Shown here in pieces: positions 19,279 to 56,476 of a stretch of 64,000 bases of DNA. A program made the translations under genes and the position numbers. This stretch comes from Lepas anatifera. Its lineage: Eukaryota > Arthropoda > Thecostraca > Lepadidae. The stretch's first letter is position 1, and each line of letters begins with the position of its first letter. The stretch lies in contig JAOTON010002200.1 in NCBI GenBank assembly GCA_034440635.1, forward strand, positions 62,001-126,000, given 5' to 3'. The notes under the pieces were generated by a model. It saw nothing but the letters and a program-made list of their open reading frames with translations, had not been told where the DNA came from and made no database searches.

Positions 19279-19457
19279 AGTAAGCAGTCACCGGTGGAGG
19301 AGCTGCTGAACCAGGCCGACCAACTCATCGCCAACCAGAAGCCCAAGGCCGAGGTGTACTCTGCAATGGCAGAGAGCCTGGGACTGGCCTGGCGTGACCT
19401 GAACGCGCAGCTGGAGACGCGCCGTCAGCTGCTGCAGCACAGCGTCGACTTCCACAG
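19279..19457 (+). CDS. CCDC141: CCDC141-like spectrin-repeat protein, exon 1 of those visible
   Basis: The exon follows CGCTACAG and ends CCACAG before GTGAGA, in phase 2. An alternative AG at 19287 would remove three codons. It encodes about 59 residues of helical, charged sequence with VEELLNQADQLIANQ, VYSAMAESLGLAW and LETRRQLLQHSVDF. The middle motif closely follows VYDAMAETLGEAW of human CCDC141 as I remember it. CCDC141 is a centrosome-associated coiled-coil/spectrin-repeat protein. The first part of the gene, including the start codon, is not recognised upstream. The exon-intron junction is followed at once by about 20 repeats of itself. Alternative: another spectrin-repeat family such as SESTD1 or Trio. 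Confidence 0.7.
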
Positions 19458-19930
19458 GTGAGACTGCACCCTCCACAGCGTCGACCTCCACAGGTGAGAC
19501 TGCACCGACCTCCACAGGTGAGACTGCACCCTCCACAGCGTCGACCTCCACAGGTGAGACTGCACCGACCTCCACAGGTGAGACTGCACCGACTTCCACA
19601 GGTGAGACTGCACCCTCCACAGCGTCTACCTCCACAGGTGAGACTGCACCGACCTCCACAGGTGAGACTGCACCGACTTCCACAGGTGAGACTGCACCGT
19701 CCTCCACAGGTGAGACTGCACCGACCTCCACAGGTGAGACTGCACCGACTTCCACAGGTGAGACTGCACCGACTTCCACAGGTGAGACTGCACCGTCCTC
19801 CACAGGTGAGACTGCACCGTCTTCCACAGGTGAGACTGCACCGACCTCCACAGGTGAGACTGCACCGACCTCCACAGGTGAGACTGCACCGACCTCCACA
19901 GGTGAGACTGCACCGACCTCCTCAGCGTCG
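19441..19930 (+). repeat. 24-bp minisatellite made of the exon 1 donor junction
   Basis: The unit is GACCTCCACAG, then GTGAGACTGCACC. It is the last 11 bases of exon 1 plus the first 13 of the intron, repeated about 18-20 times. A few units carry an extra CCTCCACAGCGTC. Each unit keeps CAG|GTGAGA, a near-consensus 5' splice site. In the exon 1 frame the second unit reads CAC AGG TGA, so use of any downstream donor adds a stop. Confidence 0.95.
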
Positions 19931-19934
19931 ACTT

Positions 19935-20550
19935 CGGAGGGAGGCGAGCGGAACGTCTTCCCCGGCCGCGGCCGTGTAGCTGTGGAGGACCGGGCCAAAG
20001 CTGTGGCCCGCGTCCGTACATACTCCCTCGTGAGCAAGCACCCCCGCCACCAGAGACATGACCGAGCCACGAAGGCCTTACTGCGCACAGAGAGGTCTTG
20101 CCCATGCCCTTGTGATGTCTCCTGTCAGCCCTTCCGCAAAGACGAGATGCTGGACCAGATTAGGCATATGAGGTCCAAGAAAGCGCCCGGGCACGATGAC
20201 GTGTGCACGGAGCACCTCCGGCACCCGGCACCGGCAGCCCAGGATTCCCTCCTGCACCTCATCAACAGCTCGTGGTGCACCTCAATGGTGCCTAAGGCGT
20301 GAAGGAGAGCGACCATTATACTGATCTTGAAAGTGGGGAAGAACCACACGACGTATCCAGCTATCGGCCCATCTCACTCACCAGCCACATCGCGAAGCTG
20401 GCCGAGTGGATGGTCGGAGCAATGCTAACCCACCTGCTGGAGAGGGACAGGACAATCACAGAGGAGCAGGCTGGTTTTCACGTGTGGCTGCTCCGCCGAA
20501 GAGAACCTGGGACGACTCGCCCAAGAAGTCCAGGACAGTTTTAAACTCCC
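19935..20550 (+). pseudogene. 5'-truncated LINE RT fragment (R1-like)
   Basis: Two plus frames match the N-terminal RT region of R1-type LINEs. FRKDEMLDQIRHMRSKKAPG and HDDVCTEHLR are followed by LLHLINSSW. Then, in another frame, come SYRPISLTSHIAKLAEWM and LLERDRTITEEQAGF. A frameshift and a stop near 20300 break the frame. It begins directly at the end of the exon 1 donor array, in intron 1. Confidence 0.7.
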
Positions 20551-20949
20551 GAGGCCGCGAGGTCGCTCGTCCGACGGCAAGAAAAATACAAATATGTGAG
20601 TTGGATTATATTAATTGGCACCAATATGTATAAAATACAGTGGCTGCGCTGCCATAGAGGCACATTAGCCACTGCTTAGCCACTTTTAAATGTCGAAGTA
20701 TGTATGTATTTTATGTGGAATAAATATAATTTGACTCTATGTTTGACGAAAAGATAATATTCCTTTTTCGGATCAAGGGGTCAAAGAGCCGATGATTTGC
20801 ATATCTGAGAATCCATGTTCGCAGCTCTTACCGTCAACAAATGTGAGATTAGGCACTTCGCGATTTCGCTGAATCTGCCTAACACCGTTGCAAACATAGC
20901 GTGTGCTTTTTGATTGACATCTTTAATATCTCATTGATTCGGACGCGAG

Positions 20950-21786
20950 TTAAAGGGAATGTGGCACCTTGGTCGAATCCTGGAATTTAGTGTAATTAGG
21001 CGTACTTTCAGTCAAAAATAATGAAACTTTTTTATAAATTTTGTTCAAGTTGTTCCTAGTACGGCTGCCGGAGTTGGAGTCTCACTAAAGTCATCAAGGG
21101 ACTTGTCACGGAGACCCCGACCCCACCACCCGAACGAGCAACTCCCTCAATGGAGGGTCAATTTAGAAGCCAAAGTTTAACGTCCCACAAAGCACAGGGA
21201 CGGCCGCCCCGCTCAGGTCACCCTCTCATCAGTCAGTTGCCAGCCGACCTGTACGTCGGGTAAACTATTGAGCGCCGGAGCGTCTCAGGGGAACCGATCC
21301 CAAGCCTGGACATGCACTGCCACTGCATGCTTCTGAGCAGCGGGCCGGAGCCCAACGCTCTACCAACTGAGCTACCGGGGCGGCTACTACTCATGAATTC
21401 TCTATTACTACTCATGATTTCTCTGAAAAATGTACAATAAGCTCAATATTTGGTTTTTGAAAATACTCCTCTAGAAAAAGAAATAAATATCAGCCTGTGG
21501 ATGATGTCACGATCTGGCAACCACTACCATACTTGAAACGCTTTAAGGGCTTGGGTGGCTGATGCTCATCGTGACGTCAGCATATGTCGTCACACCAGTG
21601 GCTCACAACAATGGCCGCCGGCGACGGGGGCTGAGGGGGGACGGTGTCAGGTAGGTTTTAGCTTTTTTCTACGGAAATATCGAGTTCCAAGACAAATGAA
21701 ATATGGAGTACCGGGTTTTCCGACCTGCTTTACAACTTGGCTATCTCAGTTAAAATCACGTTGTGAAGGTGCCACATTTACTTTAA
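20950..21786 (+). mobile_element. TTAA-flanked MITE, family M, copy B, split by a SINE
   Basis: The left end is TTAAAGGGAATGTGGCACCT and the right end is the inverse of TTAAAGTAAATGTGGCACCT. TTAA lies at both ends. The body matches copy A at 10527-10981 in the same terminal configuration, for example ACGGAAATATCGAGTTCCAA. SINE copy 3 has inserted inside it. Confidence 0.8.
21028..21384 (-). mobile_element. tRNA-derived SINE, copy 3 (full length)
   Basis: This is a full-length inverse copy, from TTTTTTATAAATTTTGTTCA to GAGCTACCGGGGCGGC. It lies inside MITE copy B, so this SINE was active after the MITE inserted. Confidence 0.9.
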
Positions 21787-23216
21787 ATCAGCAAATCAGG
21801 CATGCCTTGGCTGCTAGCACGTGCCATGCCGGGTCTTAGGACCTTTATTTCAGCGGATTCGTTTATAGACATTCTTGTATTCGTAGGTGTCTAGCCTTAT
21901 CTCCTGCGGCACAGTTGTTTGCCAGTCATGGCACAAAATCTTGCGGATAAAATTAAAAATCCGTTCACAAATCGGTCGTATATTACATCGGTCGTACATC
22001 GTGAGAAATTGGATGTCATAAAAATGAAGTGCTGAAGCTGTCCTTGAAATGGGAAGCTCTCGTAAGTACCTTGTCCTTCACGGCATACTTAACTACCGAC
22101 CTATCCTTCTTGAATTTTGCCTCGTACCTTCATAAACTGCCGCATAACCCTTTCCACAATTCATTGGCATATGTTTTTTATATTTGTTTTTAATTTGTAT
22201 GATATTAAACATTTAAACATAAATATTTTTTCTTGCTCATTGACTTGAGCTTGCCCCTTCTCTAGCCGACCTGCTGGATCCGCCCCTGTCCAATATCAGG
22301 TAAAAAGCCTGGGTGACGTCCTTACCTATAAGCCAATCGTGCCTAGGCTGTCATAATGTTCAAGCGCCGCCACTGATAAAATACAATTCCAAACTTTTGC
22401 AAAGATAAGCACACATACTTCCTATATTTTATTGGCTTCAAAATACCTTCATGTGAAGATCGTTGCTTAAACTACATAAAACACCAATAAAAAATGGAGT
22501 GTACACATCGAAATTAGTAACGAGCACCAAGCCCAATACCATCGCCGGCCACTCAGCCTGCAGTCGGCACGCCGGATAGACGCGTCCGGTTGGTAGTGGT
22601 GTAACAGGGAGGGGAGAACTGAGCAAGACTTCGCTTCGGTGACACTGCGAATGAACTTGATGTTGTGTGGAGGCTACTATTGCTAACAGAAAAATTTAAG
22701 CTATTCCGAAAAACTGAATGTATTACCGGAACATTTGTAACAGTTCCGATACTCCCGAACAGTTCCGAACATTATGTATTCCAGTTCAATTTATATTAGA
22801 AAGCACACACCACAGAAAAAAGCCACACAACGTCCCACGCCGACAACCGTTTTTCGAACATATACAATTAAGGCATGCTGCTTTACTTGTGGCGCCATTG
22901 AACTTCACATATTCAATGTGAAGCTCTAACCTTCTGTTCCTCATCATTCGAGAGCTCAGGACAATAACGGTATTCGAATTAATCGGTAGGAACTTGTGAA
23001 TCTTCAATGTTTCTTTTCTCGTGATTGCGTTATCGAAGCGTTTTCTGAGCTCAGTAGCTTATTTGAGTACTTTTTATTGAAAAAATTTCCGTAGAGATCG
23101 AGGCAAGCAATGGAACACTGCTTTCCGTTTTCTCTTCCACGCATGGTTGCTGAGATTGTAGGATATGGGTAACCCCATGCCAGTAAAGGTGGCCCGGGGC
23201 CTCATACCAATGTGCG
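21787..23216. other. Unrecognised intron 1 DNA
   Basis: AT-rich. No domain, RNA gene or clear repeat is seen. Confidence 0.6.
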
Positions 23217-24123
23217 TTAACAAGCACACTGTAGGGGGAGCCTCGGAGGTCCCCACACACTTTCTATAGGTGGCCGAAGAACCGTTTGTGGCCAAAAAAA
23301 CGCTATTTAACTGCTTTTGAGAATACTCAATGGCACGTCGATTAGTTAAATAATATTGAAAATCAGCCCCAATTTTGTAATTATAGGCTTAGTTAAACCC
23401 TTCATTTTGAAATCGCCGCAATCGTGGGGTTGCACCAGTTCGCGTACATCAAAGACTGACTGGCAATGTTATAGCGCCAGATAAAACGAGATTATATGTC
23501 AAGTTTACCCCACATGAAGGTCAAGGTCACAGCTCAAGGTCATAACAGCATTCTTAAAGTCATTGGTCCGATGCTTCCGGTCGCATGGCGTTACCCAGTA
23601 TGACGTATATTATGCTACGACCTCGTAGTTAAGATCACTCAATGTAAAGGTCAAGGTCACAGGTCAAAGTAAAATGTCATGAGTAAAGATCAATCCTTAT
23701 TTCCCGTCCAACGGTTGCTATGGTGCTAGTCATGGTGTAATTATGGGGAATATGTCCTATTGTGACGTCATAGGTCAATGACCTTGAATGCTCTTAACCC
23801 CAAAAGTTAAGTTAAAATTTTTGGAACGTTTTCACCATGAAGTTGATCCTTTTTAGTGAATTCTGTACTTTTTGCGTTTAATCATGGCATTTCCGGATGA
23901 ATCCCCAGCACGGCTAATACTTGACTTTTATGACCCCGTTTGAAGTTGACGATACTGACCTAAGTGAATTAAAATCGGTCATAATATATAGTTCAATAGT
24001 TCCCACCCAGTTCCCAACCAGAGTTTTTCTAAGCCTCCTAGTTTCCGAGAGCTCAGGGGGCCTACCACTTACCAGTCCCCCCTCCAGTGCGCGTGTCAGG
24101 CCCCTCTCCAGTGCGGGAGTTAA
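23217..24123 (+). mobile_element. TTAA MITE family F3 with nuclear-receptor half-sites
   Basis: TTAA sits at 23217 and at 24120. The inner ends are loosely inverse: AACAAGCACACTGTAGGGGG against the inverse of the right end, AACTCCCGCACTGGAGAGGG. The body matches 31047-31600 over blocks such as GTTGCACCAGTTCGC, CAGTATGACGTATATTATG and AGGTCAAGGTCA. TCAAGGTCA, the extended half-site of ERR/SF-1-type receptors, occurs at 23521, 23534 and 23650. Confidence 0.6.
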
Positions 24124-24749
24124 GGAATCGGACATTGATTATAATCTATTGTTTTAAATACATCTGTACCCTGATGTCCCATCAATCCCACCATTGACAC
24201 CTTTTTCGTGACCAGAGACGTTTGTTAGTCGCAGCGACGGCGGGCCGCGCTGGCGCATGAACGTCGCAAAAGTTGGGCTCGGGACGTTTGGGAGCTCAGA
24301 TCTCGCTTCCTGATAAAGTTTCTCTTCTTTTTCTTGCTGAATCTTATAGAGAAAATTGTAAAGAGTAATTTGAGTCTCAAAAAGTTTAAAATAAGTCATA
24401 GGAAATAGTTTTATATATTCTGAAAAATTCAGAAATGTAAAATATATCCAAAATTTATTTTTAATTATATTTTTCATGAGCCAGAATTCTTAATTCGTCC
24501 TTAACAGAACTAGCTCAAGTTTTATGGTATTTGTAGAAGCATACAGGAGAAATTTCGTCTTTAAAAATATATGTAAGTGGTTATGGTCAAAATGCCTCAG
24601 GCTATTTTTTCAAACCGTAAGTCGGGGAGAAAAAGGAATGCGAGCATTGCCATCAGCTCCATCAATAGCTTCCCCGACAAAAATACACCGAAATCTACGG
24701 TATGAGGATGTTACCGACTTTTCGACCTGTCGCGGAATGCCCCAATTAT

Positions 24750-24960
24750 AGAATGGAAAATAGTTCGAACTAAGTTTCATTTATTTCCTCTTGTGAAAAC
24801 AGCTTGAACTAAGTTCTATTGATTTCTTTCTGCGAAAACAGTCTGAACTAAGTTCAATTTATTTCCTCGTATGAAAATAGTTTGAACTAAGTTCCATTCA
24901 TTTCCTCGTATGAAAACAGTTCGAACAAGTTTCATTTATTTCCTCGCGTGGAAACAGTGT
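24750..24960. repeat. About 46-bp tandem repeat, 4-5 degenerate copies
   Basis: Each unit carries GTTTGAACTAAGTTCCATT, then TATTTCCTCGTATGAAAACA. The copies diverge by several substitutions each. Confidence 0.85.
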
Positions 24961-25227: not shown

Positions 25228-26066
25228 CTCCACAGCCGCTCGGCAATCCTTTGTGTAATCACTGCTGACTGATGTCTGTTCCATGATGCCAGAATAACTG
25301 GGTGGTGTGGCGTTACAGCCGCGCGGAAATCCTTTGTGTAATCACTGCTGACTGATGTCTGTTCCATGATGCCAGAATAACTGGGTGGTGTGGCATTACA
25401 GCCGCGCGGAAATCCTTTGTGTAATCACTGCTGACTGATGTCTGTTCCATGATGCCAGAATAACTGGGTGGTGTGGCATTACAGCCGCGCGGAAATCCTT
25501 TGCGTAATCACTGCTGACTGATGTCTGTTCCATGATGCCAGAATAACTGGTTGGTGTGGCGTTACAGCCGCGCGGAAATCCTTTGTGTAATCACTGCTGG
25601 CTGATGTCTGTTCCATGATGTCAGAATAACTGGGTGGTGTGGCGTTACAGCCGCGCGGAAATCCTTTGTGTAATCACTGCTGACTGATGTCTGTTCCATG
25701 ATGCCAGAATAACTGGGTGGTGTGGCGTTACAGCCGCTCGGCAATCCTTTGTGTAATCACTGCTGACTGATGTCTGTTCCATGATGCCAGAATAACTGGG
25801 TGGTGTGGCATTACAGCCGCGCGGAAATCCTTTGTGTAATCACTGCTGACTGATGTCTGTTCCATGATGTCAGAATAACTGGGTGGTGTGGCGTTACAGC
25901 CGCGCGGAAATCCTTTGTGTAATCACTGCTGACTGATGTCTGTTCCGTGATGCCAGAATAACTGGGTGGTGTGGCATTACAGCCGCGCGGAAATCCTTTG
26001 TGTAATCACTGCTGACTGATGTCTGTTCCATGATGTCAGAATAACTGGGTGGTGTGGCGTTACAGC
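25228..26066 (+). repeat. 83-bp minisatellite ending at the exon 2 acceptor
   Basis: About ten copies of an 83-bp unit contain GGTGGTGTGGCGTTACAG, CCGCGCGGAAATCCTTTGTG, ACTGCTGACTGATGTCTGTT and CCATGATGCCAGAATAACTG. The last copy runs straight into exon 2 as GCGTTACAG|CCGCTCG. Each unit therefore carries a copy of the acceptor plus the first exon bases. Two units retain CCGCTCGG, the closest to the true exon start; the others read CCGCGCGG. Confidence 0.95.
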
Positions 26067-26177
26067 CGCTCGAGAAGCTTCAACGACAGCATGGACCTGG
26101 CTGAGCGCGTGTTCGGTGACGTCAGCATTCCCAGTGACGTCGAGGAAGCACGGGCAGCCATCAGACAGCAGACAGAG
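26066..26177 (+). CDS. CCDC141: CCDC141-like protein, exon 2
   Basis: It begins after GTTACAG with one base completing the split codon from exon 1, and ends CAGACAGAG before GTCAGA in phase 0. A second possible acceptor at GAAG (26077) is also in frame and would drop four codons, SRSR. It encodes SFNDSMDLAERVFGDV and VEEARAAIRQQTE, which continue the spectrin-type helix from exon 1. Order and phase fit the neighbouring exons. The donor GTCAGA is weaker than at other exons. Confidence 0.75.
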
Positions 26178-26825
26178 GTCAGACCATCAGCGGAGGCAGA
26201 CTGGCGTCATTGCACGACCCAAACTACATGCAGATGGCTGTTGTGACAGCATGCACCTGGCCAAGCAGGCCAGTACGGTGCGGCCGGGCCTGGCCGCTGA
26301 GTGGCACCGTTGGGGAGGAAAGGGGATGGACATGGAGAGACAGGGCAAACTACCACAATAGGCTGGCCGGTTTCTGCAAAAGTTTTCAGAACCTTGGCCT
26401 CTACATCTCCGTAGCTGAATGTTTAGGCGCTGATTACGAATATCGGGTCAGAGATGCAAAGACTCAAAATCTTTTGGCGGCGCCCGGCCGCTGAAAATGT
26501 CGGTTATTTTTCAGTTTTGTACACTAAATGGCAAAAACAGCGCATTTTCGGCTTCCTGTAGGTAGTAATATTGTCTAAAGACTCACCAAACATGGATAGT
26601 TCCATTAGTCAGCCATAGACCATGCTGTCCGCTTGGAAAGCTCGGCTGATGTACAGGCTTGGTATGAGGCCGCACGACAATACTCAACGGCAGTGAGGTT
26701 GGTAAGATGTGTGCTAAAACGTTTTTGTAGCTTTGACTGGTTAGATTGCAGGGTTGCTTATGAAGCTTCTTTACTAGACGGCGTCTCTAGATATAGGCGG
26801 CTCAGCCCTCTAGATACCAACTGAG
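26178..26825. other. Intron 2, unrecognised part
   Basis: No gene is seen. Near the end, TACCAACTGAGC (26815) is the inverse of GCTCAGTTGGTA (26837) in the SINE head. It suggests a head-to-head scrap of a second SINE. Confidence 0.5.
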
Positions 26826-27082
26826 CCACCCCGGTAGCTCAGTTGGTAGAGCGTTGGGCTCCGGCCCGCTGCTCAGAAGCATGCAGTGGCAGTGCATGTT
26901 CAGGCTTGGGATCGGTTCCCCTGAGACGTTCCGGCGCTCAATAGTTTACCCGACGTACAGGTCGGCTGGCAACTGACTGGTGAGAGGGTGACCTGAGCGG
27001 GGCGACCGTCCCTGTGCTTTGTGGGACGTTAAACTTTGGCTTCTAAATCAGCCCTTCATTGTGGTAGTTGCTCGTTCGGGTG
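26826..27082 (+). mobile_element. tRNA-derived SINE, copy 4, first segment (split)
   Basis: The SINE runs from its tRNA-like head (CCCCGGTAGCTCAGTTGGTA) to GCTCGTTCGGGTG and is cut there. The missing continuation GGTGGGGTCG appears at 32953-32966, and the tail GGGGTCTCCGTGACAGGTCC appears at 36569 onward. The intact copies in this window give the uninterrupted sequence. Confidence 0.85.
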
Positions 27083-30780: not shown

Positions 30781-31046
30781 TGACTCAAATTTGTTTTAAA
30801 CGAACCTGCCAATTTGTAAACGGGCCGGCCAGTTTGGAAACGGTCCAGGATACTAGAAAACCCAAACGGGCCAGACTGTTTGCATACGGGCCGGCCCATT
30901 TGCAAACGGGCTAACTTGCTGGCCCGTTTGCATACCGGCCGGCTATTTGGCCCGTTTACAAATGGGCCGGCCCGTATGCAAACGGGCCAATTTTCCATAC
31001 CGGCCGTAACATATACACGCGATATGCTTGGCATTGAAGACGTCAT

Positions 31047-33124: not shown

Positions 33125-34300
33125 TTAATGATTGACAGCTGGTTGTTCTCTGACCACCTTTCTAAAGCTGGCTAGTGATAGCGCGTTTACGGCGGCAGGT
33201 GGCAACTCATTCCAGATCTTTGCCCACCGGTAATTAAACGACCGTTGTGATGCGGTAAGGCGAAGAGCCGGCAGCTGGAGCACACCTCTTGACGAGGCAC
33301 GCGTTTCTCTAGTTGAGACTTCGCTGCGGCTATGAAAACGCCTTTTGATCTCTTCGGGAGACCAATTAAGCTTTAATGTTTTGAACACTTTTATAGCGTG
33401 TCTCTCGGCTACTATTGTCTCTATCTTGGGCCATCCTAGGGAGTTCAGGACGGGGGTTATATGGTCACGCTTTCTTGAACCAGAGATGATTCGGGCAGCG
33501 AAATTTAGAATTTTTTGGATTCGGTGTAGTGACCCGTGGACTGCTCCACCCCACACAGATAAGCAATACAAGATATGAGGGAATACGTATGCCTGAATGA
33601 TGATTTCCAGAGCCTTTTTTGTAAAGTGATGTTTCAATCTTGAAATAGAGATGAGGATAGCGTTACACTGCTGGCACACGCGTGATGTCTGTGCCTCCCA
33701 TGACAGACTAGGTTCTAGCATAATACCAAGAACTTTTAGTTTGTTTGATGTCTTTAGCATAGTGCCGTCAAAGTCAAATTTGAAGTCGGATGCTTTTTTC
33801 AAGTTGCTTTTGGAGCCAAGAAGCATAAAATCGGTTTTGCTAGCATTGAGCTTAAGAGAGTTTGCAGAAAACCATGCTTTTAGCTCGTTTGCTGTAAGTT
33901 CCAGGCGCGTTTGAAGAGATAGCAAACTCTGCTTGTCGGAAGGGGAGCTTTCGATGTGCATGGTGTCATCAGCATATGAGATGAGCCGACCATGGGTCAC
34001 AAAGCCAGGAAGGTCGTTAGTAAACAGGATCAAAAGGATAGGGCCCAAGATCGAGCCCTGTGGCACACCGCTTTTTACAGGAAGGATAAGACTTCCACCT
34101 CTAACCTTTCGAGAACGCCCGGTCAAATAACTGACAAACCAGTCTGTCTCTATGCCATTCCATGACAACTTTGTAAGAAGAAGATCATGATCTACGCCGT
34201 CGAACGCCTTGGATAAATCTATGGCGGTTACTGCGGATAATTTGCCTTTGTCCGAGTTGTCGACAAAACATTGAACTGCACTGAGAAGTTGAGAACAGCG
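33125..34300 (-). pseudogene. LINE reverse transcriptase, catalytic and C-terminal part
   Basis: Runs from about FVDNSDKGKLSAVTAIDLSK through AFDGVDHDLL, GVPQGSILGPILL and SYADDTMHIES, where the catalytic YADD is intact. It continues to KLNASKTDFMLLGSKSN and a C-terminal domain ending at the stop near 33125 (RWAKIWNELPPAAVNAL, then SLASFRKVVREQ). In function this would reverse-transcribe the element RNA at a nicked target. It is joined to the preceding segment by a frameshift near 34280, so the full protein is not made unless the shift is a sequencing error. Confidence 0.85.
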
Positions 34301-35225
34301 TTTTCTGTCGAAGGCTGCGGCCTGAAGCCGAATTGACTTGGCTGTAATACATGGACACTTTGCAGGTAAACATTGAGCTGAGAGCAAGCAACTTTTTCTA
34401 TTATTTTCGAGAGCACGCTTAAGAGTGAAATTGGTCGATGCTTGGAGGGTATTGAAGGGTCACCAGACTTAAAAATAGGCACGATGGAAGCCAATTTCCA
34501 GTCATTTGGGAATGTTTTCGTGATAAGTGAGCAGTTGAAAAGGCGCAGAAGGTGGGGGCCGATTACAGCAAAACACTTTTTTATCGCAAACAATGGGACT
34601 CCATCCATGCCTACAGCGCGGGACGAGCTCATCGCACGCAAACATAGCTCCGGAAGGGTGACGAGTCTGAAGCTAAAACCTGATGCGCAGACAGTTGGAG
34701 GTCTCGGATGTTTCAATCCCTGTGCGACTTCGGTGGAAAAGGACTCGGCGATGGTGGATCCTACAGTGGCGAAGTGTTTGTTGAGCTCGTCTGTTGCTAG
34801 GGTATTTCCTTCTGATCTTTGTAGCGTCTTGGCTGGTGATTGATTGGTGTTAATGGCGATCTTCTTGAACGTCGGCCAGAAGCTACTGCGACCTCCAGAT
34901 GCGAGCTCACCACACAGAAATTCCCTTCGGGCCTTCACCATTTGCTTCTTGACCTTGTTACGAAGGTTTACGTAGCTCTTCTCCGCTTGTGGAGTCCGCT
35001 GGCAGTGCCAAAGGTCACGAGCCATGTCTCTTTGTGCCATTAGCTGTCGCACCTCAGTCCCTAGCCATGGCATAGGGTCTCGAGTAACGCGCTTGGTGGT
35101 TAAAGGACAAAGTCGGTCCATCACATTGTTCCAGATTTCCATGAAACCCTGTAAGCAGGAGTTAACGTCTTCAGCGTTGCCGACGCCATTCCAGTCGCTA
35201 CTTAGGAGGTCCAGGCACATGCCGT
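34228..35225 (-). pseudogene. LINE linker and RT N-terminal part
   Basis: MDRLCPLTTKRVTRDPMPWL and VRREFLCG-like basic stretches form the linker. FSFRLVTLPE and SSSRAVGMDGVPLFAIKKCF come next, followed by WKLASIVPIFKSGD, KHRPISLLSVLSKIIEKV and QFGFRPQPSTENAVL, which are the first RT blocks. The frame is lost right after the last motif. Confidence 0.85.
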
Positions 35226-36037
35226 CCCAGTTTGCCCGTCTCCAGGGGGAGGGATGTATGAGTCTGTGCCTGTTTCCGGACTCGGCAAACGTTTGTTGTA
35301 ATCAGCACTGGCTGGCGATCGCTAATGCTGTTGGACAGCACTTGGACTTGAAGCGCAGGGTCTTGGTTATTTGTGATGACATGGTCCAGGGCTGTAGAAG
35401 TGGGCCTCAGGTGTGTAGCCTCTCGAACTAGCTGCTTGAGGTTCATCTCATCCAGGAGATTGAGGTACCGTCGTGTGAATGGAGAGTTGTTATCAAGTAT
35501 GTCTATGTTGAGGTCACCAAGGAGAAAAAGAGGTTTGCCTTTGCTCAAGGAAGCACGAAGCTGGTCCTCCAAATGCTCCAGACTGGATGGAATAGGGCTG
35601 TCTGGCGGTCTGTAGGCAACTCCGATCGCAAAAGGCCGCCATCCACTGCACGTAACCGAGGCCCACAACGTTTCCAGAGGCCCATCTCCCGGTGTGGTGA
35701 ACGGTCTTACTTCTATGTCATTACGGTGTAGTATCGCCACACCTCCTCCCCGCTTTCCGATGCGATCGCGCCGAAGAATAGAATAGTTAGGGAAATGAAG
35801 AAATTTATCTAATATGTTTAGGCTGAGCCACGTCTCAGAAATGCACAGAATGTGAATACTGTAGTTTCTAAGGAGACGAAGGATTTCGGCCAATTTACTT
35901 GGAAGTGATCTCACGTTCAGGTCGCATATCTTCATCTTGTCATGGGTTACATTTTGGCATCGGTAAGCGCTTAGGACGTATGAGCACTCTGTTTCGTTCG
36001 GCTTTGAGTCGTACCCGGTATTTGTTCGTTGGTCCAT
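35198..36037 (-). pseudogene. LINE apurinic-type endonuclease domain
   Basis: In order: MKICDLNVRSLPSKLAEI, CISETWLSLN (catalytic Glu), RRDRIGKRGGGVAIL, GVAYRPPDSP, LLGDLNIDILD (catalytic D-x-N) and LDHVITNN. The final motif reads SDRQPVLIT, where APE-type endonucleases normally have S-D-H. The general-base His is therefore replaced by Arg. The probable start is MDQRTNTGYDSKP or the later MKICDLN. The domain would nick target DNA; the lost His suggests this copy cannot. Confidence 0.85.
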
Positions 36038-36565
36038 GATCGGTAATGACAGGGATCAGTTGTTCCTTGTTAGATGGATCCAATTTCTTTTGTTCTTGCG
36101 TAGAATAAGATATAGGTGGGCGGTACATTTTATTCAAAATTATTTGTCATAAGGTTAATTGACAATTATTTATCGGAAGTGTTCTTCCTACACTGTCACG
36201 TTGTTTTGCATAGCTTTGTGGAGGTGGTCTTCTTTGAGTATTCACGTTTTTAGATGTTATACGATGAGTGGCGAATTTGTGGCAAGTAAGATGAAACCAT
36301 CGGTAGAGTCAGTTTCTAGTCTACCGGATCTCAAACAGTACCTGTTTCTGTGCTTCGTCGAAGATTTCGTCGCCGTGGCTGAAACTTCCAGCGTCTTGGT
36401 TGCTCAAGAAACGGTCTTTACCGTAGGAAAATTGTGATCAGATGATGAGTTAAACACTGAACAATAACACGCAGATAAAACAAACTTTTTTTCAAACACG
36501 AGACCCAAGATAATGCAGAGCGGCGTCAAAAGCAGCTGCTCCGTTCTACCGCAGCCGGTAGAAGG

Positions 36566-38490: not shown

Positions 38491-38626
38491 GTGAAGAAGG
38501 CCATGCTGGAGTCGTCGATGGCTACTCTGCAGGAAGGCAAACAGCTGCTGGGGAGGTTACGCCAGCTAGCCAAACAGGGAACGATCGACTCTCGACCGAA
38601 ACACCTGCGGGCCAGTGTCCAGTCCG
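38491..38626 (+). CDS. CCDC141: CCDC141-like protein, exon 3
   Basis: A good acceptor, TTTATTTCTGTGTTGGCTCAG, precedes it. It ends GTCCAGTCCG before GTGAGT, in phase 1. It encodes KKAMLESSMATLQEGKQLL and RLRQLAKQGTIDSRPKHL. The first stretch follows KELLERSLALLNKSQQL of human CCDC141 as I recall it, at the right place after exon 2. The entry phase 0 matches the exon 2 exit. Within 40 bases downstream a 45-bp repeat with acceptor-like CTGCCCCGCAG begins. Confidence 0.75.
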
Positions 38627-38645
38627 GTGAGTCCGTGCCGCTGAC

Positions 38646-38790
38646 CTGTTCCATCTGCCCCGCAGCGTCACCAGAGGCTGCGACCCAGACCTTTTCCATC
38701 TGCCCCGCAGCGTCACCAGAGGCTGCGACCCAGACCTTTTCAATCTGCCCCGCAGCGTCACCAGAGGCTGCGACCCTGACCTTTGGTTTC
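38646..38790 (+). repeat. 45-bp tandem repeat, 3 copies, each with an acceptor-like end
   Basis: The unit contains GACCTTTTCCATCTGCCCCGCAG then CGTCACCAGAGGCTGC (read as two adjacent blocks of one unit). The pyrimidine tract plus CGCAG looks like a 3' splice site. It starts about 20 bp inside intron 3. Confidence 0.9.

Positions 38791-39282: not shown

Positions 39283-39322
<40 letters not shown>
39283..39322. repeat. (AT)n microsatellite
   Basis: This is a run of about 20 AT dinucleotides, flanked on the right by an inverted F1 scrap (GGTGACCTGACCTGAGATGA). Confidence 0.95.
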
Positions 39323-39427: not shown

Positions 39428-40462
39428 TCTTAGCCACCTTCGCTCTGACTGTGTCTCTGTGTTGACCTGTTCTGTGTTTCTGTGTTGACCTGTTCTGACC
39501 GTGTCTCTGTGTAGACCTGTTCTTGACTGTGTCTCTGTGTTGACCTGTTCTGACCGTGTCTCTGTGTTGACCTGTTCTGACTGTGTCTCTGTGTTGACCT
39601 GTTCTGACTGTGTCCCTGTGTAGACCTGTTCTTGACTGTGTCTCTGTGTTGACCTGTTCTGACCGTGTCTCTGTGTTGACCTGTTCTGACTGTGTCTCTC
39701 TGTTGACCTGTTCTGACTGTGTCCCTGTGTTGACCTGTTCTGACTGTGTCCCTGTGTTGACCTGTTCTGACCGTGTCTGTGTTGACCTGTTCTGACTGTG
39801 TCCCTGTGTTGACCTGTTCTGACTGTGTCCCTGTGTTGACCTGTTCTGACTGTGTCTCTGTGTTGACCTGTCCTGACCGTGTCCCTGTGTTGACCTGTTC
39901 TGACTGTGTCCCTGTGTTGACCTGTTCTGACCGTGTCTCTGTGTTGACCTGTTCTGACCGTGTCCCTGTGTTGACCTGTTCTGGCCGTGTCTCTGTGTTG
40001 ACCTGTTCTGACTGTGTCTCTGTGTTGACCTGTTCTGACTGTGTCCCTGTGTTGACCTGTTCTGACCGTGTCTCTGTGTTGACCTGTTCTGACTGTGTCT
40101 CTGTGTTGACCTGTTCTGACCATGTCCCTGTGTTGACCTGTTCTGATTGTGTCTCTGTGTTGACCTGTTCTGACTGTGTCTCCGTGTTGAGTTGCTCTGA
40201 CCGTGTCTCTGTGTTGACTTGTTCTGACCGTGTCCACGTGTTGACCTGTTCTGACTGTGTCTCTGTGTTAACCTGTTCTGACTGTGTTTCTGTGTTGACC
40301 TGTTCTGGCCGTGTCTCTGTGTTGACCTGTTCTGACCGTGTCTCTGTGTTGACCTGTTCTGACTGTGTCCCTGTGTTGACCTGTTCTTGACTGTGTCTCT
40401 GTGTTGACCTGTCCTGACTGTGTCTCTGTGTTGACCTGTTCTGACCGTGTCCGCGTGCCACA
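39428..40462 (+). repeat. 27-bp minisatellite running to the exon 4 acceptor
   Basis: About 37 copies of TGACCGTGTCTCTGTGTTGA then CCTGTTC. The last copy becomes CTGACCGTGTCCGCGTGCCACAG at exon 4. Each unit has a pyrimidine-rich tract and CTGAC/TTGAC words that resemble branch sites, but only the last has the AG. The minus strand spells glutamine- and threonine-rich open frames of up to 343 codons, which I regard as artefacts. Confidence 0.95.
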
Positions 40463-40463: not shown

Positions 40464-40592
40464 CGTGCGCGCAGGTGGAACGATGGCTGGAGGAGCTGCA
40501 CGATCGTCGCCGCTGCCTAGAGTCGCTGTTCAGCGATCGTCGTCTCGTCCTGCAGCAGTGTCTGTCGCTCTCTCAGCTATACGCCGACCTCG
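40464..40592 (+). CDS. CCDC141: CCDC141-like protein, exon 4
   Basis: It begins after GTGCCACAG, with CG completing the codon left by exon 3. It encodes ACAQVERWLEELHDRRR, CLESLFSDRRLVLQQCL and SLSQLYADL, and ends in CTCG before GTACGT in phase 1. This follows SCLKVDRLLELLQDRRRQL of human CCDC141 as I recall it, the best single match in the gene. The last 37 bases of the exon plus the donor are tandemly repeated three more times (to about 40720), so other donors exist at 55-bp steps. The first is chosen because its phase fits exon 5. Confidence 0.8.
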
Positions 40593-40722
40593 GTACGTCT
40601 CGTCCTGCAGCAGTGTCTGTCGCTCTCTCAGCTGTACGCCGACCTCTGTACGTCTCGTCCTGCAGCAGTGTCTGTCGCTCTCTCAGCTGTACGCCGACCT
40701 CGGCACGTCTTGTCCTGCAGCC
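40541..40722 (+). repeat. 55-bp repeat of the exon 4 end and its donor
   Basis: Copies start at 40541, 40596, 40651 and 40706 with CGTCTCGTCCTGCAGCAGTG, then the exon end. Donor versions are GGTACGT, TGTACGT and GGCACGT (the last is dead). Each unit also holds CTGCAG ahead of the coding part. Three extra units are 165 bp, a multiple of three, so the exon frame re-opens in the fourth copy. Confidence 0.9.
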
Positions 40723-40959
40723 GTGCCTGGCGTTCTATGCATCCGAGTCGCAGCATGGAATGGTCGAGAGACCTGTGTTTGTCAGCTGCCGGTGGTATGT
40801 TCTCGCGTCTGGTTGAATTTGTCAATCTTGCAGCTGTTTGAAAACACATAGGCACTGGTATTAAGAGTGGTGAAACATGAACTCTTGGCGGTGAGCGGAG
40901 TCTTTTGTTTCCCAAAGAGGATATGAGTGGATCGATAACTTGTGATTTCTGACATAGGC

Positions 40960-41700
40960 AGTGCACTGTTGGGTGAGAGAGTGATCATAGAGAGTGTCCC
41001 CTCTCCTCCAGCCATAGGCAGTGCACTGTTTGGAGAGTGTCTCCTCTCCTCCAGCCATAGGCAGTGCACTGTTGAGAGAGTGTCCCCTCTCCTCCAGCCA
41101 TAGGCAGTTCACTGTTGGGAGAGTGTCCCTCTCCTCCAGCCATAGGCAGTTCACTGTTGGGAGAGTGTCCCCTCTCCTCCAGCCATAGGCAGTGCACTGT
41201 TTGGAGAGTGTCTCCTCTCCTCCAGCCATAGGCAGTGCACTGTTGAGAGAGTGTCCCCTCTCCTCCAGCCATAGGCAGTTCACTGTTGGGAGAGTGTCCC
41301 TCTCCTCCAGCCATAGGCAGTTCACTGTTGGGAGAGTGTCCCCTCTCCTCCAGCCATAGGCAGTGCACTGTTGGGAGAGTGTCCCCTCTCCTCCAGCCAA
41401 AGGCAGTGCACTGTTGGGAGAGTGTGCCCTCTCCTCCAGCCATAGGCAGTGCACTGTTGGGAGAGTATCTCCTCTCCTCCAGCCATAGGCAGTGCACTGT
41501 TGGGAGAGTGTCCCCTCTCCTCCAGCCATAGGCAGTGCACTGTTGGGAGAGTGTCCCCTCTCCTCCAGCCATAGGCAGTTCATTGTTGGGAGAGTGTCCC
41601 CTCTCCTCCAGCCATAGGCAGTGCACTGTTGGGAGAGTGTCCCCTCTCCTCCAGCCATAGGCAGTGCACTGTTGGGAGAGTGTCCCCTCTCCTCCAGCCC
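40960..41700 (+). repeat. 43-bp minisatellite ending 14 bp before exon 5
   Basis: About 17 copies of CCATAGGCAGTGCACTGTTG, then GGAGAGTGTCCCCTCTCCTC, then CAG. CCCCTCTCCTCCAG looks like a strong pyrimidine tract plus AG. The last copy is followed by CCCGCTCGGTCCCACAG and exon 5, so every unit is a potential false acceptor. Confidence 0.95.
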
Positions 41701-41714
41701 GCTCGGTCCCACAG

Positions 41715-41839
41715 GTGCTGTACAGAAGCGGGCAGAACTGATTCGGAGGGAGTTGGCAGGTAGCTGCCAGCTGGGCGAGTCGCCCGACTCGTCAGCTATC
41801 CTGTTGGAGCAACACGGACGGCTCGAGCAGGAGGCCAAG
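41715..41839 (+). CDS. CCDC141: CCDC141-like protein, exon 5
   Basis: It starts after GGTCCCACAG, with GT completing a Gly codon from exon 4, and ends GAGGCCAAG before GTCAGT in phase 0. It encodes AVQKRAELIRRELAGS, then a polar linker and LLEQHGRLEQEAK. This follows the FQKTIRNLQEQ...HKQEELIIKAK region of human CCDC141 as I recall it. The exon is intact, with no stop in its frame. Confidence 0.75.
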
Positions 41840-46565: not shown

Positions 46566-46757
46566 GCTGTGCAGGACGCGGCGCTGCGGCTGCTGGGCGC
46601 TGCTGAGGCGCTGGTACGCAGCGCTACCTACGCCCGCGACGAGCCGCGCACACGCGCCTACGCCGTGCTGGAGACCTGTACTCAGCTGACGGAGGAAACG
46701 GACCGGCGCCGCAGTCTGCTCAGCGGCGCACACCAGTTCTTTCAGCGCGCTCAACAG
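46566..46757 (+). CDS. CCDC141: CCDC141-like protein, exon 6
   Basis: It is 192 bases in phase 0 at both ends, from after GCCGACAG to GCTCAACAG before GTAGGA. It encodes AVQDAALRLLGAAEALVRSA, then EPRTRAYAVLETC and TEETDRRRSLLSGAHQFF. Human CCDC141 has a stretch ending with the pattern K-K-A-N-E-F-F-N-S-A-N-K at the same position, as I recall. Base composition is strongly GC-rich, as in the other exons. The donor is the first copy of a 36-bp repeat. Confidence 0.8.
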
Positions 46758-47246
46758 GTAGGACACTGCCCAGTCTCAGCACCATGGCAACAGGAAGGAC
46801 ACTGCCCGGTCTCGTCACCATGGCAACAGGAAGGACATTGCCCATTCTCGTCACCATGGCAACAGGTAGGACACTGACCAGTCTCAGCACCATGGCAAGA
46901 GGAAGGACACTGCCCATTCTCGTCACCATGGCAACAAGGACACTGCCCATTCTCGTCACCATGGCAACAGGTAGGACACTGCCCAGTCTCAACACCATGG
47001 CAACAGGTAGGACACTGCCCATTTCGTCACCATGGCAACAGGAAGGACACTGCCCAGTCTCAGCACCATGGCAAGAGGAAGGACACTGCCCATTCTCGTC
47101 ACCATGGCAACAAGAAGGACACTGCCCGGTCTCGTCACCATGGCAACAGGTAGGACACTGCCCAATCTAAGCACCATGGCAACAGGAAGGATACTGCCCA
47201 TTCTCGTCACCATGGCGACAGGTAAGGCACTGCCCAGTCTCAGTAT
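46745..47246 (+). repeat. 36-bp minisatellite made of the exon 6 donor junction
   Basis: About 13-14 copies of ACCATGGCAACAG, then GTAGGACACTGCCCAGTCTC, then AGC. The exon ends CTCAACAG|GTAGGACACTGCCC, so the unit spans the junction. Several copies keep GT (GTAGG near 46865, 46971, 47007 and 47151, and GTAAGG near 47220). Others are changed to GAAGG and cannot act as donors. Confidence 0.95.
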
Positions 47247-47248
47247 AC

Positions 47249-51670: not shown

Positions 51671-51841
51671 ACGTTGGAGCGTCTGTCGGCGCTGGAGTTG
51701 AAGCTGGGCTCGGCGCCACTTCCAGACAAGCCGCGCGTGCACGCCGAGACCTCTGCTGCCCTGGAGGAGGTGGCTGCTGCCGCCATCAATGCCGGCAACG
51801 CCCTGCTCGACCAGGCTGGACGCGGTACTGACGGCACCGAG
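51671..51841 (+). CDS. CCDC141: CCDC141-like protein, exon 7
   Basis: It is 171 bases, phase 0 at both ends, from after GGCCTGCGCCTCAG to GGCACCGAG before GTACCA. It encodes TLERLSALELKLGSAPLP, then VHAETSAALEEVAAAAINAG and NALLDQAGRG. The shape, two short helices of a spectrin-like repeat, suits its place between exons 6 and 8. In human CCDC141 a V-L-x-x-V-E-x-Y-L-x-L-L segment sits here, as I recall. It is unusually Ala-rich. No array touches either junction. Confidence 0.7.
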
Positions 51842-52207
51842 GTACCACTGAGCCACCTCAAGCTTACTCCCATTGCTTTCCTGGGAAGTTGGCGCGATGA
51901 ATTGTGGGCTCCCTGATCGGGATGGTCAGCGTGGCTGGGGTTCCCTGCTTACATGTTGCATGTAAGGAGCATGATACTCATTTAGTTGTGATTGTGTATA
52001 ACCCTGTTATAAAACCGGAGAATGCATGCCATTGGTTGACAAGAAAGGCCTTATTTTATAGGAACGACCCTGTGCTGTAGAGTAATCATATTTTATGTCA
52101 TTGGAACTTGAAAGTGCCGCTGCTAAAGGACTACTCTGTATATATGAAACTTGCGTGGCGTTTTTATTGGTGACAAATGCATTTACCTCCTCAGGCAATT
52201 TCACTGG

Positions 52208-52576
52208 TTTTGTGGTCGCACGTCGTGTCAGACAGGTTCTGACTCCGCTTGGCATTTGTCGCTGGTTCTACCTCCGCTCTGTTTGGTGTTTGTCGCTGGT
52301 TCTGCCTCCGCTCTGCTCGGCGTTTGTCGCTGGTTCTGCCTCCGCCACCCTGGGAATTTATCGCTGGTTCTGCCTCCGCCACGCTGGGTGTTTGTCGCTG
52401 GTTCTGCCTGTGCCACCCTGGGAATTTATCGCTGGTTCTGTCTCCGCCACCCTGGGCATTTGTCGCTGGTTCTGCCTCCGCTCTGCTCGGCGTTTGTCGC
52501 TTGTTCTGCCTCCGCCACGCTGGGCGTTTAACGCCGGTTCTACCTCCGCCACGCTGGGCGTTCCTTTTTTGTTATT
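52208..52576 (+). repeat. Degenerate 34-bp repeat block, copy 1
   Basis: The units read TTTGTCGCTGGTTCTGCCTC, then CGCTCTGCTCGGCG or CGCCACGCTGGG. The block starts TGTGGTCGCACGTCGTGTCA and recurs at 58378-58861 with the same start. Its core CTGGTTCTGCCTCCGC is shared with the 29-bp array at 52905. Confidence 0.9.
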
Positions 52577-52586
52577 CCCTCCTGCC

Positions 52587-52905
52587 TCCTGGCGGAGAAG
52601 TAGCCGGATGACTCTGAAGCCACCTATAGTCGGCCGTCAGGGCTGTGATGACGTCTTCACGCCGTGCCTCCTCTATGTTCATGCTTATGCTGCCCGTCAG
52701 GCGATGTCGCAGCGCCATCAGGGCGGGGCACTGCAGCAGCACGTGGGCTGGGGTGTCGTTTTCCTCCCGGCAGGCCGTGCACCGAGCCGCTGGGCAGCGG
52801 GGGTCGTCACACTGGAGGCACTGCCGGGAGGGGTTCCGTCCGATGCGATGGAGGTATAGGGCGGAGCTGGACCAATGGCCGGCGCGGAGTAGATGAATGT
52901 CAACG
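52587..52905 (-). pseudogene. LINE C-terminal remnant (Cys/His region)
   Basis: On the minus strand RAGHWSSSALYLHRIGRNPS is followed by C-L-Q-C, then CTACREENDTPAHVLLQCPA and LMALRHRLTGSI. This C-x-x-C...H-x-L-x-x-C-P pattern is the C-terminal zinc-knuckle-like end of R1-type LINEs. The stretch is open and well kept. It sits between two repeat blocks in intron 7. Confidence 0.7.
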
Positions 52906-55900
52906 GCCTCCGCAGGGTGTATCTCAATGGTTCTGCCTCCGCAGGGTGTATCTCAATGGTTCTGCCTCTGCAGGATGTATCTGACTGGTTCTGCCTCCGC
53001 AGGGTGTGTGACTGGTTCTGCCTCTGCAGGGTGTGTCTGACTGGTTCTGCCTCTGCAGGGTGTGTCTGACTGGTTCTGCCTCCGCAGGGTGTGTCTGACT
53101 GGTTCTGCCTCCGCAGGGTGTGTCTGACTGGTTCTGCCTCTGCAGGGTGTGTCTGACTGGTTCTGCCTCTGCAGGGTGTGTCTGACTGGTTCTGCCTCTG
53201 CAGGGTGTGTCTGACTGGTTCTGCCTCTGCAGGGTGTGTCTGACTGGTTCTGCCTCCGCAGGGTGTGTCTGACTGGTTCTGCCTCCGCAGGATGTGTCTG
53301 ACTGGTTCTGCCTCCGCAGGGTGTGTGGCTGGTTCTGCCTCCGCAAGATGTGTCTGACTGGTTCTGCCTCTGCAGGGTTTGTCTGACTGGTTCTGCCTCT
53401 GCAGGATGTGTCTGACTGGTTCTGCCTCCGCAGGGTGTGTCTGACTGGTTCTGCCTCCGCAGGGTGTGTCTGACTGGTTCTGCCTCCGCAGGGTGTGTCT
53501 GACTGGTTCTGCCTCTGCAGGATGTGTCTTACTGGTTCTGCCTCCGCAGGGTGTGTCTGACTGGTTCTGCCTCCGCAGGGTGTGTCTGACTGGTTCTGCC
53601 TCCGCAGGGTGTGTCTGACTGGTTCTGCCTCCGCAGGGTGTGTCTGACTGGTTCTGCCTCCGCAGGGTGTGTCTGACTGGTTCTGCCTCTGCAGGATGTG
53701 TCTTACTGGTTCTGCCTCCGCAGGGTGTGTCTGACTGGTTCTGCCTCCGCAGGGTGTGTCTGACTGGTTCTGCCCCTCCGCAGGGTGTGTGTGACTGGTT
53801 CTGCCTCCGCAGGGTTTGTCTGACTGGTTCTGCCTCCGCAGGGTGTGTGGCTGGTTCTGCCTCCGCAAGATGTGTCTGACTGGTTCTGCCTCCGCAGGGG
53901 TGTGTGACTGGTTCTGCCTCCCCAGGGTGTGTCTGACTGGTTCTGCCTCCGCAGGGTGTGTGTGGCTGGTTCTGCCTCCGCAAGATGTGTCTGACTGGTT
54001 CTGCCTCCGCAGGGTGTGTGACTGGTTCTGCCTCCCCAGGGTGTGTCTGACTGGTTCTGCCTCTGCAGGATGTGTCTTACTGGTTCTGCCTCCGCAGGAT
54101 GTGTCTGACTGGTTCTGCCTCCGCAGGGTGTGTCTGACTGGTTCTACCTCTGCAGGACGTATCTGACTGGTTCTGCCTCTGCAGGGTGTGTCTGACTGAT
54201 TCTGCCTCCGCAGGGTGTGTCTGACTGGTTCTGCCTCCGCAGGGTGTGTGACTGGTTCTGCCTCCCAGGGTGTGTCTGACTGGTTCTGCCTCTGCAGGAT
54301 GTGTCTTACTGGTTCTGCCTCCGTAGGGTGTGTGACTGGTTCTGCCTCCGCAGGGTGTGTTTGACTGGTTCTACCTCCACAGGGTGTGTGTGACTGGTTC
54401 TGCCTCCACAGGGTGTGTGTGACTGGTTCTGCCTCCGCAGGACTGTGTCTGACTGGTTCTGCCTCCGCAGGGTGTGTCTGACTGGTTCTGCCTCCGTAGG
54501 GTGTGTGACTGGTTCTGCCTCCGCAGGGTGTGTTTGACTGGTTCTGCCTCCACAGGGTGTGTGTGACTGGTTCTGCCTCCGCAGGATGTGTCTGACTGGT
54601 TCTGCCTCCGCAGGGTGGTAGCTCAATGGCTCTGCCTCCACAGGGTGTGTGACTGGTTCTGCCTCCGCAGGGTGTGTCTGACTGGTTCTGCCTCTGCAGG
54701 GTGTGTCTGACTGGTTCTGCCTCCGCAGGGTGTGTCTGACTGGTTCTGCCTCTGCAGGATGTGTCTTACTGGTTCTGCCTCTGCAGGATGTGTCTGACTG
54801 GTTCTGCCTCCGCAGGGGTGTGTCTGACTGGTTCTACCTCTGCAGGATGTATCTGACTGGTTCTGCCTCTGCAGGGTGTGTCTGACTGATTCTGCCTCCG
54901 CAGGGTGTGTCTGACTGGTTCTGCCTCCGCAGGATGTGTCTGACTGGTTCTGCCTCCGCAGGGTGTGTCTGACTGGTTCTGCCTCCGCAGGGTGTAGCTC
55001 AATGGCTCTGCCTCCACAGGGTGTGTGACTGGTTCTGCCTCCGCAGGGTGTGTCTGACTGTTTCTGCCTCTGCAGGATGTGTCTTACTGGTTCTGCCTCC
55101 GCAGGATGTGTCTGACTGGTTCTGCCTCCGCAGGGTGTGTCTGACTGGTTCTGCCTCCGCAGGGTGTGTCTGACTGGTTCTGCCTCTGCAGGATGTGTCT
55201 TACTGGTTCTGCCTCCGCAGGGTGTGTGTGACTGGTTTGTGCCTCCGCAGGGTTTGTCTGACTGGTTCTGCCTCCGCAGGGTGTGTGGCTGGTTCTGCCT
55301 CCGCAAGATGTGTCTGACTGGTTCTGCCTCCGCAGGGTGTGTGACTGGTTCTGCCTCCCCAGGGTGTGTCTGACTGGTTCTGCCTCTGCAGTGATGTGTC
55401 TTACTGGTTCTGCCTCCGCAGGATGTGTCCTGACTGGTTCTGCCTCCGCAGGGTGTGTCTGACTGGTTCTACCTCTGCAGGATGTATCTGACTGGTTCTG
55501 CCTCTGCAGGGTGTGTCTGACTGATTCTGCCTCCGCAGGGTGTGTCTGACTGGTTCTGCCTCCGCAGGATGTGTCTGACTGGTTCTGCCTCCGCAGGGTG
55601 TGTCTGACTGGTTCTGCCTCCGTAGGGTGTGTGACTGGTTCTGCCTCCGCAGGGTGTGTTTGACTGGTTCTGCCTCCACAGGGGTGTGTGACTGGTTCTG
55701 CCTCCGCAGGATGTGTCTGACTGGTTCTGCCTCCGCAGGGTGTAGCTCAATGGTTCTGCCTCCGCAGGGTGTGTGACTGGTTCTGCCTCCGCAGGGTGTG
55801 TCTGACTGGTTCTGCCTCTGCAGGGTGTGTGACTGGTTCTGCCTCTGCAGGATGTGTCTGACTGGTTCTGCCTCTGCAAGATGTGTCTGACTGGTTCTGC

Positions 55901-56347
55901 CTCCGCAGGGTGTTTCTGACTGGTTCTGCCTCTGCAGGATGTGTCTGACTGGTTCTGCCTCCGCAGGATGTGTCTGACTGGTTCTGCCTCTGCAGGATGT
56001 GTCTGACTGGTTCTGCCTCCCGCAGGATGTGTCTGACTGGTTCTGCCTCTGTTGCAGGGTGTGTCTGACTGGTTCTGCCTCTGCAGGATGTGTCTGACTG
56101 GTTCTGCCTCTGCAGGATGTGTCTGACTGGTTCTGCCTCCGCAGGGTGTGTCTGACTGGTTCTGCCTCTGCAGGATGTGTCTGACTGGTTCTGCCTCCGC
56201 AGGATGTGTCTGACTGGTTCTGCCTCCGCAGGGTGTGTCTGACTGGTTCTGCCTCTGCAGGATGTGTCTGACTGGTTCTGTCTCCGCAGGATGTGTCTGA
56301 CTGGTTCTGCCTCCGCAGGGTGTGTCTGACTGGTTCTGCCTCCGCAG
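52905..56347 (+). repeat. 29-bp minisatellite made of the exon 8 acceptor, about 120 copies
   Basis: The unit is CTGGTTCTGCCTCCGCAG, then GGTGTGTCTGA. Variants have CTGCAG, GGATGTG or a 25-bp form ending GTGTGA. The last copy continues into exon 8 (CGCAG|GGTGTGTCTGACTGC). Every unit thus contains the pyrimidine tract, the AG and the first bases of exon 8. The array fills about three quarters of intron 7. Minus-strand open frames of up to 421 codons are artefacts of the unit. Confidence 0.97.
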
Positions 56348-56476
56348 GGTGTGTCTGACTGCATGGTGGAGCTGCAGCGGCGTGTGGAGGAACTGAATGC
56401 TCTCTGCACCGCCCACAAGGAGGAGACGCTGAGGCAAGCTCAGCTGAACACCGATTTCCTGGAGAAGTATAACACG
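56348..56476 (+). CDS. CCDC141: CCDC141-like protein, exon 8
   Basis: It is 129 bases, phase 0 at both ends, from after CCTCCGCAG to AACACG before GTGCGT. It encodes GVSDCMVELQRRVEELNAL, CTAHKEETLRQAQLNTDF and LEKYNT. RRVEELNALCTAHKEE follows the RRVDHLTEQCSAHKEY segment of human CCDC141 as I recall it. No further exon is recognised before 64000, so the rest of a gene of this type must lie beyond, with the broken transporter inside its next intron or between genes. Confidence 0.8.

Follow-up and report, generated by a model that had tools for sequence, protein, structure and literature searches.

In Lepas anatifera, 5 of the 16 exon ends of one gene lie inside tandem arrays whose repeat unit itself takes in the splice dinucleotide together with bases of the exon and of the intron. 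The gene occupies much of the window studied here, a 64,000-nucleotide stretch of assembly GCA_034440635.1 (contig JAOTON010002200.1, positions 62,001 to 126,000, forward strand), and its product is, judged by its homologues, a muscle-type spectrin-repeat protein of the CCDC141/titin-like kind. The arrays sit both at donors (exons 1, 4, and 6, hereafter E1, E4, and E6) and at acceptors (E2 and E8), and by their sequence they are minisatellites of a known kind, the "mirages" of amphioxus. The explanation that we favor, and hold to be probable though by no means assured, is a non-adaptive one, in which tandem duplication biased to exon edges was followed by expansion and the exon-proximal copy is the one used.

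That five splice junctions of this gene are themselves amplified had been proposed in an earlier note, and all five arrays were recovered by Tandem Repeats Finder (TRF; 64 rows in the window), by copy-by-copy reading, and by self-match. The E1 donor array (19438..19925; all exons of the gene and arrays in it lie on the + strand) has a 24/36-bp unit and includes 18 identical copies of CCACAG/GTGAGACTGCAC, where the slash marks the splice site. The E2 acceptor array (25232..26069) has an 83-bp unit, with 10 copies carrying TTACAG/CCGC; the unit takes in four exon bases according to TRF and seven (CCGCTCG) when two copies, at 25232 and 25730, are read directly. At the E4 donor (40541..40736) the 55-bp unit consists of the last 52 exon bases plus GTA, and the array comprises three full copies, with donors GT, GT, and GC, and a diverged partial copy. 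The E6 donor array (46752..47241) has a 36-bp unit in 13.7 copies, with six exon bases, and the E8 acceptor array (52906..56361) has a 29-bp unit, TTCTGCCTCCGCAG/GGTGTGTCTGACTG (rotated), with 14 exon bases, present in 119.8 copies by TRF and 121 by our own parse. For the self-match, short words across all 16 exon ends were used to count other matching places, which numbered 17 for the E1 donor, 9 for the E2 acceptor (word -14/+6), 2 for the E4 donor, 12 for the E6 donor (word -6/+14, chosen because the E6 unit holds just six exon bases), and 106 for the E8 acceptor (word -14/+6). The remaining 11 junctions had no copies nearby in this self-match; a single distant match at the E6 acceptor was taken as chance. 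Three further arrays, also claimed in the earlier note and likewise present, come close to junctions with no exon bases inside: a 45-bp array (38643..38784) begins 16 bases past the E3 donor, a 27-bp array of 37.4 copies (39444..40451) stops 12 bases ahead of exon 4, and a 43-bp array of 16.6 copies (40990..41699) stops 15 bases ahead of exon 5.

The gene model against which these arrays were judged was rebuilt from homology, independently of the arrays. A search by tblastn with 21 homologues located exons 1, 3, 4, 6, and 8; exons 2 and 5 were deduced from frame and alignment, and exon 7 was recognized by its open frame and its fit. The resulting coding chain (19279-56476) has eight exons and 391 codons, no stop, and fitting phases throughout. 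Exon 1 (19279..19457) starts with SKQSPVEELLNQAD, is entered in phase 0 and left in phase 2, and is 63-82% identical to 18 of the 21 homologues by tblastn. Exons 2 (26066..26177) and 5 (41715..41839) rest on the frame chain and the homologue alignment, to which tblastn adds its support for exons 3 (38491..38626), 4 (40464..40592; 79.5% identity to the homologue P0011), and 6 (46566..46757). Exon 7 (51671..51841) is supported by its open frame, the frame chain, and the alignment; exon 8 (56348..56476) fits both chain and alignment and has 67% identity to a second homologue, P0021, with borders that appear to be equal. In an alignment with nine homologues, one of which reaches only the first three introns, there are no gaps within five residues of any covered intron among the seven. 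Because the phases fit and the homologues are free of gaps near the introns, the exon borders stand independently of the arrays. The 391-residue chain is intact, with one authentic copy of each spanned junction, and it is the copy next to the exon that agrees, free of gaps, with all homologues.

As to the identity of the gene, an earlier 333-residue chain without exon 7 matched spectrin repeats (PF00435, 9.7e-9) in Pfam. When the full chain was used as query, a protein search gave 17 matches, of which 10 are from named arthropods and one is a weak mammalian MCF2-like match; the best match, from the krill Meganyctiphanes, is 43% identical over the whole chain. The CCDC141/titin-like label follows from the names of the homologues, one being called CCDC141-like and others titin. 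In a tree of 17 rows the Lepas chain was placed beside krill at 90/84, under the mark that the tool sets for strong support, which makes a crustacean affinity probable and an arthropod one secure. The same gene extends upstream on the same contig, with an exon starting TTLSTIAVQSGSTRIIIALLQ at about contig positions 18312-18446 and another, EWVELKVLEMTPDL..., at about 61383-61505. The donor of the first and both junctions of the second have no array near them, the closest arrays of score 100 or more being about 350 bp or more away, so that the gene, with these three clean junctions added, has 19 known junctions, 5 of them spanned.

We next consider the copies themselves. The five arrays together hold 152 intact splice-motif sites (E1 18, E2 11, E4 3, E6 6, and E8 114), of which five are the true sites, and use of the other 147 would bring a frameshift or stop in all cases except one. 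The exception is the fourth E6 donor copy (46758-46865), which keeps the frame and adds 36 residues (VGHCPVSAPWQQ...). All 18 E1 copies are identical from -6 to +12, so that the sequence cannot decide among them, and the choice would fall to position and exon definition. At E6 the GT is kept in 6 of the 14 copies and lost in 8. Exon 8 closes a row of 114 YAG/G acceptors, mostly 29 bp apart, of which 26 share the 34 bases around the site. The AG of the E8 unit is kept in 115 of the 121 copies (A in 121/121 and G in 115/120 aligned copies), and seven positions of the unit besides the A are also at 100%. Thus, there is no sign of upkeep of the decoy copies as splice sites. A branch-point-like yTrAy occurs in 85 of the 121 E8 copies; the consensus motif is CTGAC, which by direct reading falls in exon sequence in the last copy. 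Each E8 unit is therefore, by its sequence, close to a full acceptor, and the choice of the last copy would have to rest on position or on exon definition.

Could such copies serve the gene? The earlier note suggested that decoy sites tune splicing, and in a fuller form of this idea inner copies would compete with the true site and send transcripts to nonsense-mediated decay or to an in-frame isoform. The near identity of the decoys to the true sites, the 146 non-productive outcomes that a decay switch would need, and the 36 in-frame residues offered by the one E6 copy would be in keeping with such tuning. The loss of GT from most E6 copies and the lack of position-specific upkeep at E8 speak against it, as does the report, in the portions of the article at hand, that amphioxus mirages do not disturb splicing (PMC3087553). 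The suggestion thus went without support, and we regard tuning as improbable, a small chance being left to regulation through transcript decay.

How the arrays arose may be pictured as follows. A founding tandem duplication, ending between a few and about 50 bases into the exon and tens of bases into the intron, would have copied the junction, and unequal exchange or slippage would then have expanded it to 3-121 copies. The coding sequence would survive since the copy on the exon side is left intact when a duplication runs across a junction; whether this is the first copy of a donor or the last copy of an acceptor, it would still adjoin the exon. Exon definition (a short exon, an intact partner site, and exonic signals) presumably picks the copy that borders the exon, and it is because this copy is used that the arrays would be tolerated. 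Growth would be into the intron only and nearly neutral. To explain the excess at junctions we would invoke a bias of mutation toward exon edges in a generally array-rich gene, where GC content falls from 0.64 in exons to 0.57 in the 50-bp flanks and 0.44 in array-free introns.

Evidence that there is an excess came from placing the 13 merged arrays of the gene at random, shorter or low-scoring TRF rows being omitted (for example, those at 21385, 27371, 27448, 29688, 30797-30988, and 31418, and an AT run at 39283). When no array could reach further than 55 bases into an exon, the five spanned junctions compared with a mean of 0.35 and the eight junctions within 20 bp of an array with a mean of 0.51, and not one of 40,000 trials reached either number. 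A founder-unit model gave an expectation of 0.30 spanning arrays (P = 4e-6). We prefer nulls that spare exons, since the exons exist and hence must have been spared; under them the overlap with junctions is non-random within this gene, and chance in that sense was rejected.

Several points weigh against the explanation by biased duplication. When seeding was limited to 100 bp around exons the expectation rose to 1.68 and the result was far less extreme (P = 0.01). When arrays were free to swallow exons, the four junctions counted as spanned under a five-base rule compared with a mean of 3.03 (P = 0.40), spanning being ordinary under this null because a 3.4-kb array alone covers many exons; for the eight junctions within 20 bp the mean was 3.28 (P = 0.02). 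The claim in the earlier note that chance would not hit junctions so often stands if exons must be spared; if they can be swallowed, the spanning count does not bear it out. Moreover, the mutational bias is drawn from a single gene; we infer from sequence which copies transcripts use, as we do neutrality and the bias itself; and at E8 the spliceosome would have to skip 113 upstream YAG/G sites, which simple first-AG scanning does not predict.

The exon-swallowing result is also what one would expect if the pattern were a regional accident, with the gene lying in a minisatellite hot spot, transposons having swollen its introns, and coincidence and survival accounting for the junction hits. With a score threshold of 100, the gene has 14 arrays in 37.2 kb (3.8 per 10 kb, 23% of bases), as against 21 arrays in 200 kb (1.05 per 10 kb, 3.5% of bases) for 20 baseline stretches, which were evenly spaced picks from six contigs and not a random sample, and 9 arrays (1.8 per 10 kb, 7.9% of bases) in the 50 kb upstream. 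Its introns are, in addition, filled with many dispersed repeats. Set against this are the exon-sparing nulls, which never gave the observed overlap and left a P value of 0.01 even with only the 100-bp flanks available, and we consider an accident of this kind unlikely.

A different alternative is that mutagenesis is targeted to junctions, breaks tied to splicing or transcription (R-loops or staggered breaks) starting duplications at splice sites throughout the lineage. The hits on 5 of 16 junctions in one gene fit such targeting, and so do direct repeats at the array ends: the 13-mer CAGCGTCGACTTC occurs at 19440 and again at 19923, one copy for each end of the E1 array, and the 11-mer ACAGCCGCTCG marks the two ends of the E2 array (25232 and 26062), with a third copy inside it (25730). 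They resemble the direct repeats at the edges of new introns in Daphnia, which Li and others, in the portions of their article at hand, read as scars of staggered breaks (PMC4202315). The homologue P0011, too, has an extra exon 4 start (ISAACAQLERW versus VSAACAQVERW) 84 residues upstream, which looks like a two-copy duplication of the junction in a relative. The three upstream junctions of the gene are clean, however, and the arrays have no seed motif in common. Seeding at AG/GT-like sequence, one idea of the earlier note, was rejected: AGGT (+ strand) is in the consensus unit of only 1 of the 16 arrays tested, that of E1, and hence of just one of the five junction arrays, although two of the five true sites (E1 and E6) have it. 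A pattern search of the assembly (1.044 Gb, 2,126 contigs) for three CAGGTRAGT at 15-45-bp spacing gave 192 + 193 matches, compared with 107 + 63 for the reversed pattern, but the matches cluster within few arrays (the first 100 lie on 12 contigs) and have no single-motif normaliser, and so we did not use the count as evidence of an excess. Junction-targeted mutagenesis is accordingly a minority candidate in our estimation. The broader proposition that a process of the lineage starts duplications at splice junctions, so that mirages recur across genes independently of those in lancelets and exon definition alone silences the decoys, we likewise regard as doubtful, if a little less so.

Finally, the arrays might be left over from the birth of introns, which in the Rogers model comes about when an exon piece bearing AGGT is duplicated in tandem. 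Mirages have been proposed as a route to new introns (PMC3087553, in the portions at hand), and intron 1 (19457/26066) lies, by our own reading of read-through translations, about 10 nt upstream of the intron of the homologues P0006 and P0007. Sliding of intron 1, which alone has a junction array at its donor as well as at its acceptor, is possible on this reading. Other introns appear to be old. P0011 and P0021 are open reading frames on contigs, translated through into introns, and their likeness to the window ends at the borders of exons 4 and 8, respectively; at exon 4, P0011 shares 79.5% identity with Lepas versus 55.8% for krill. Because these borders are apparently held in common, introns 3, 4, and 7 seem to be older than the arrays. 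Four of the five junction consensus units also lack AGGT. We rejected an origin of the Rogers type on these grounds, the introns compared with relatives being 3, 4, and 7, and give intron birth very little credence.

The duplication that we favor has a close precedent. The earlier note knew of no such pattern, yet tandem repeats over exon-intron boundaries have been published for amphioxus under the name of mirages, in Adh3, globins (BflGb6/BflGb9), troponin C, and PGBD5 (PMC3087553 and PMC3902484), with splicing reported, as far as the available portions go, to be normal and undisturbed (PMC3087553). There, as here, a unit of tens of base pairs crosses the boundary, donors and acceptors are both affected, many copies have an intact AG or GT, and the coding chain is apparently unharmed. 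The Lepas arrays differ in that their host is an arthropod rather than a cephalochordate, that five are in one gene, that there are up to 121 copies, and that they are known from sequence alone. We found no report of boundary-spanning repeats in arthropods in the literature searched, a weak negative given that most subscription journals lie outside its coverage. Other systems share single features, as far as the parts of the articles consulted go. In tandem-duplication intron gain (potato RdRp, ATP2A1, and the 24-bp AGGT repeats of fission yeast; PMC4974935) the tandem copies bear splice signals as ours do, whereas the Lepas introns appear older than their arrays and would bring no new exon or intron into the productive transcript. 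Daphnia is likewise a crustacean and its intron-edge repeats recall the ends of the E1 and E2 arrays, but the introns there are new and the repeats short, whereas here long arrays cross old junctions. Tandem repeats are enriched genome-wide toward intron ends in green algae (PMC3887541), where, unlike in Lepas, they are mostly of short unit and, in the passages seen of that article, are not described as spanning junctions. A minisatellite has been linked to alternative splicing in Caenorhabditis elegans (PMC4039745). Mirages outside the cephalochordates, five of them in one gene, would make of an amphioxus curiosity something that tandem duplication produces generally, and those of Lepas offer both a natural test of how the spliceosome chooses among near-identical copies of a splice site and an approach to the question whether duplication is concentrated at exon edges.

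We also note several other repeats in the window. A fragment resembling a reverse transcriptase (19926-20478, + strand) directly adjoins the E1 donor array where it faces the intron; no such fragment was found at the ends of the other four junction arrays by the test used at E1. A 34-bp array with a unit related to that of E8 (52246..52562) belongs to an element with a second copy at 58377-58850 (95% identity at 58377-58723), and as this E8-like element is dispersed, either repeats derived from the junction may have spread or matters may have gone the other way. Another dispersed repeat, of about 260-360 bp, is present in five copies with 91-97% identity (14661-15019, 18558-18918, 21028-21384, 26825-27082, and 56711-57072), two of which lie shortly downstream of exons 2 and 8. 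The intron that precedes exon 1 holds long GC-rich minisatellites at 905-2003, 2242-3108, and 5135-5795, and no exon was found near these. The window has no Rfam matches and no tRNA. A bacterial or viral origin was rejected, there being no sensible genes of such kind and a conserved arthropod exon chain; a viral-contig scan gave one weak match (L001, 37 residues). In the genome as a whole, a profile search with the myosin domain PF00063 found 79 exon places. Last, intron 2 contains a non-LTR (long terminal repeat) retrotransposon (33125-36055, - strand) whose endonuclease (PF03372) and reverse transcriptase (PF00078) lie in frames that overlap; for the reverse transcriptase frame the closest named relative comes from a barnacle, Amphibalanus (54%, across 27% of the query).

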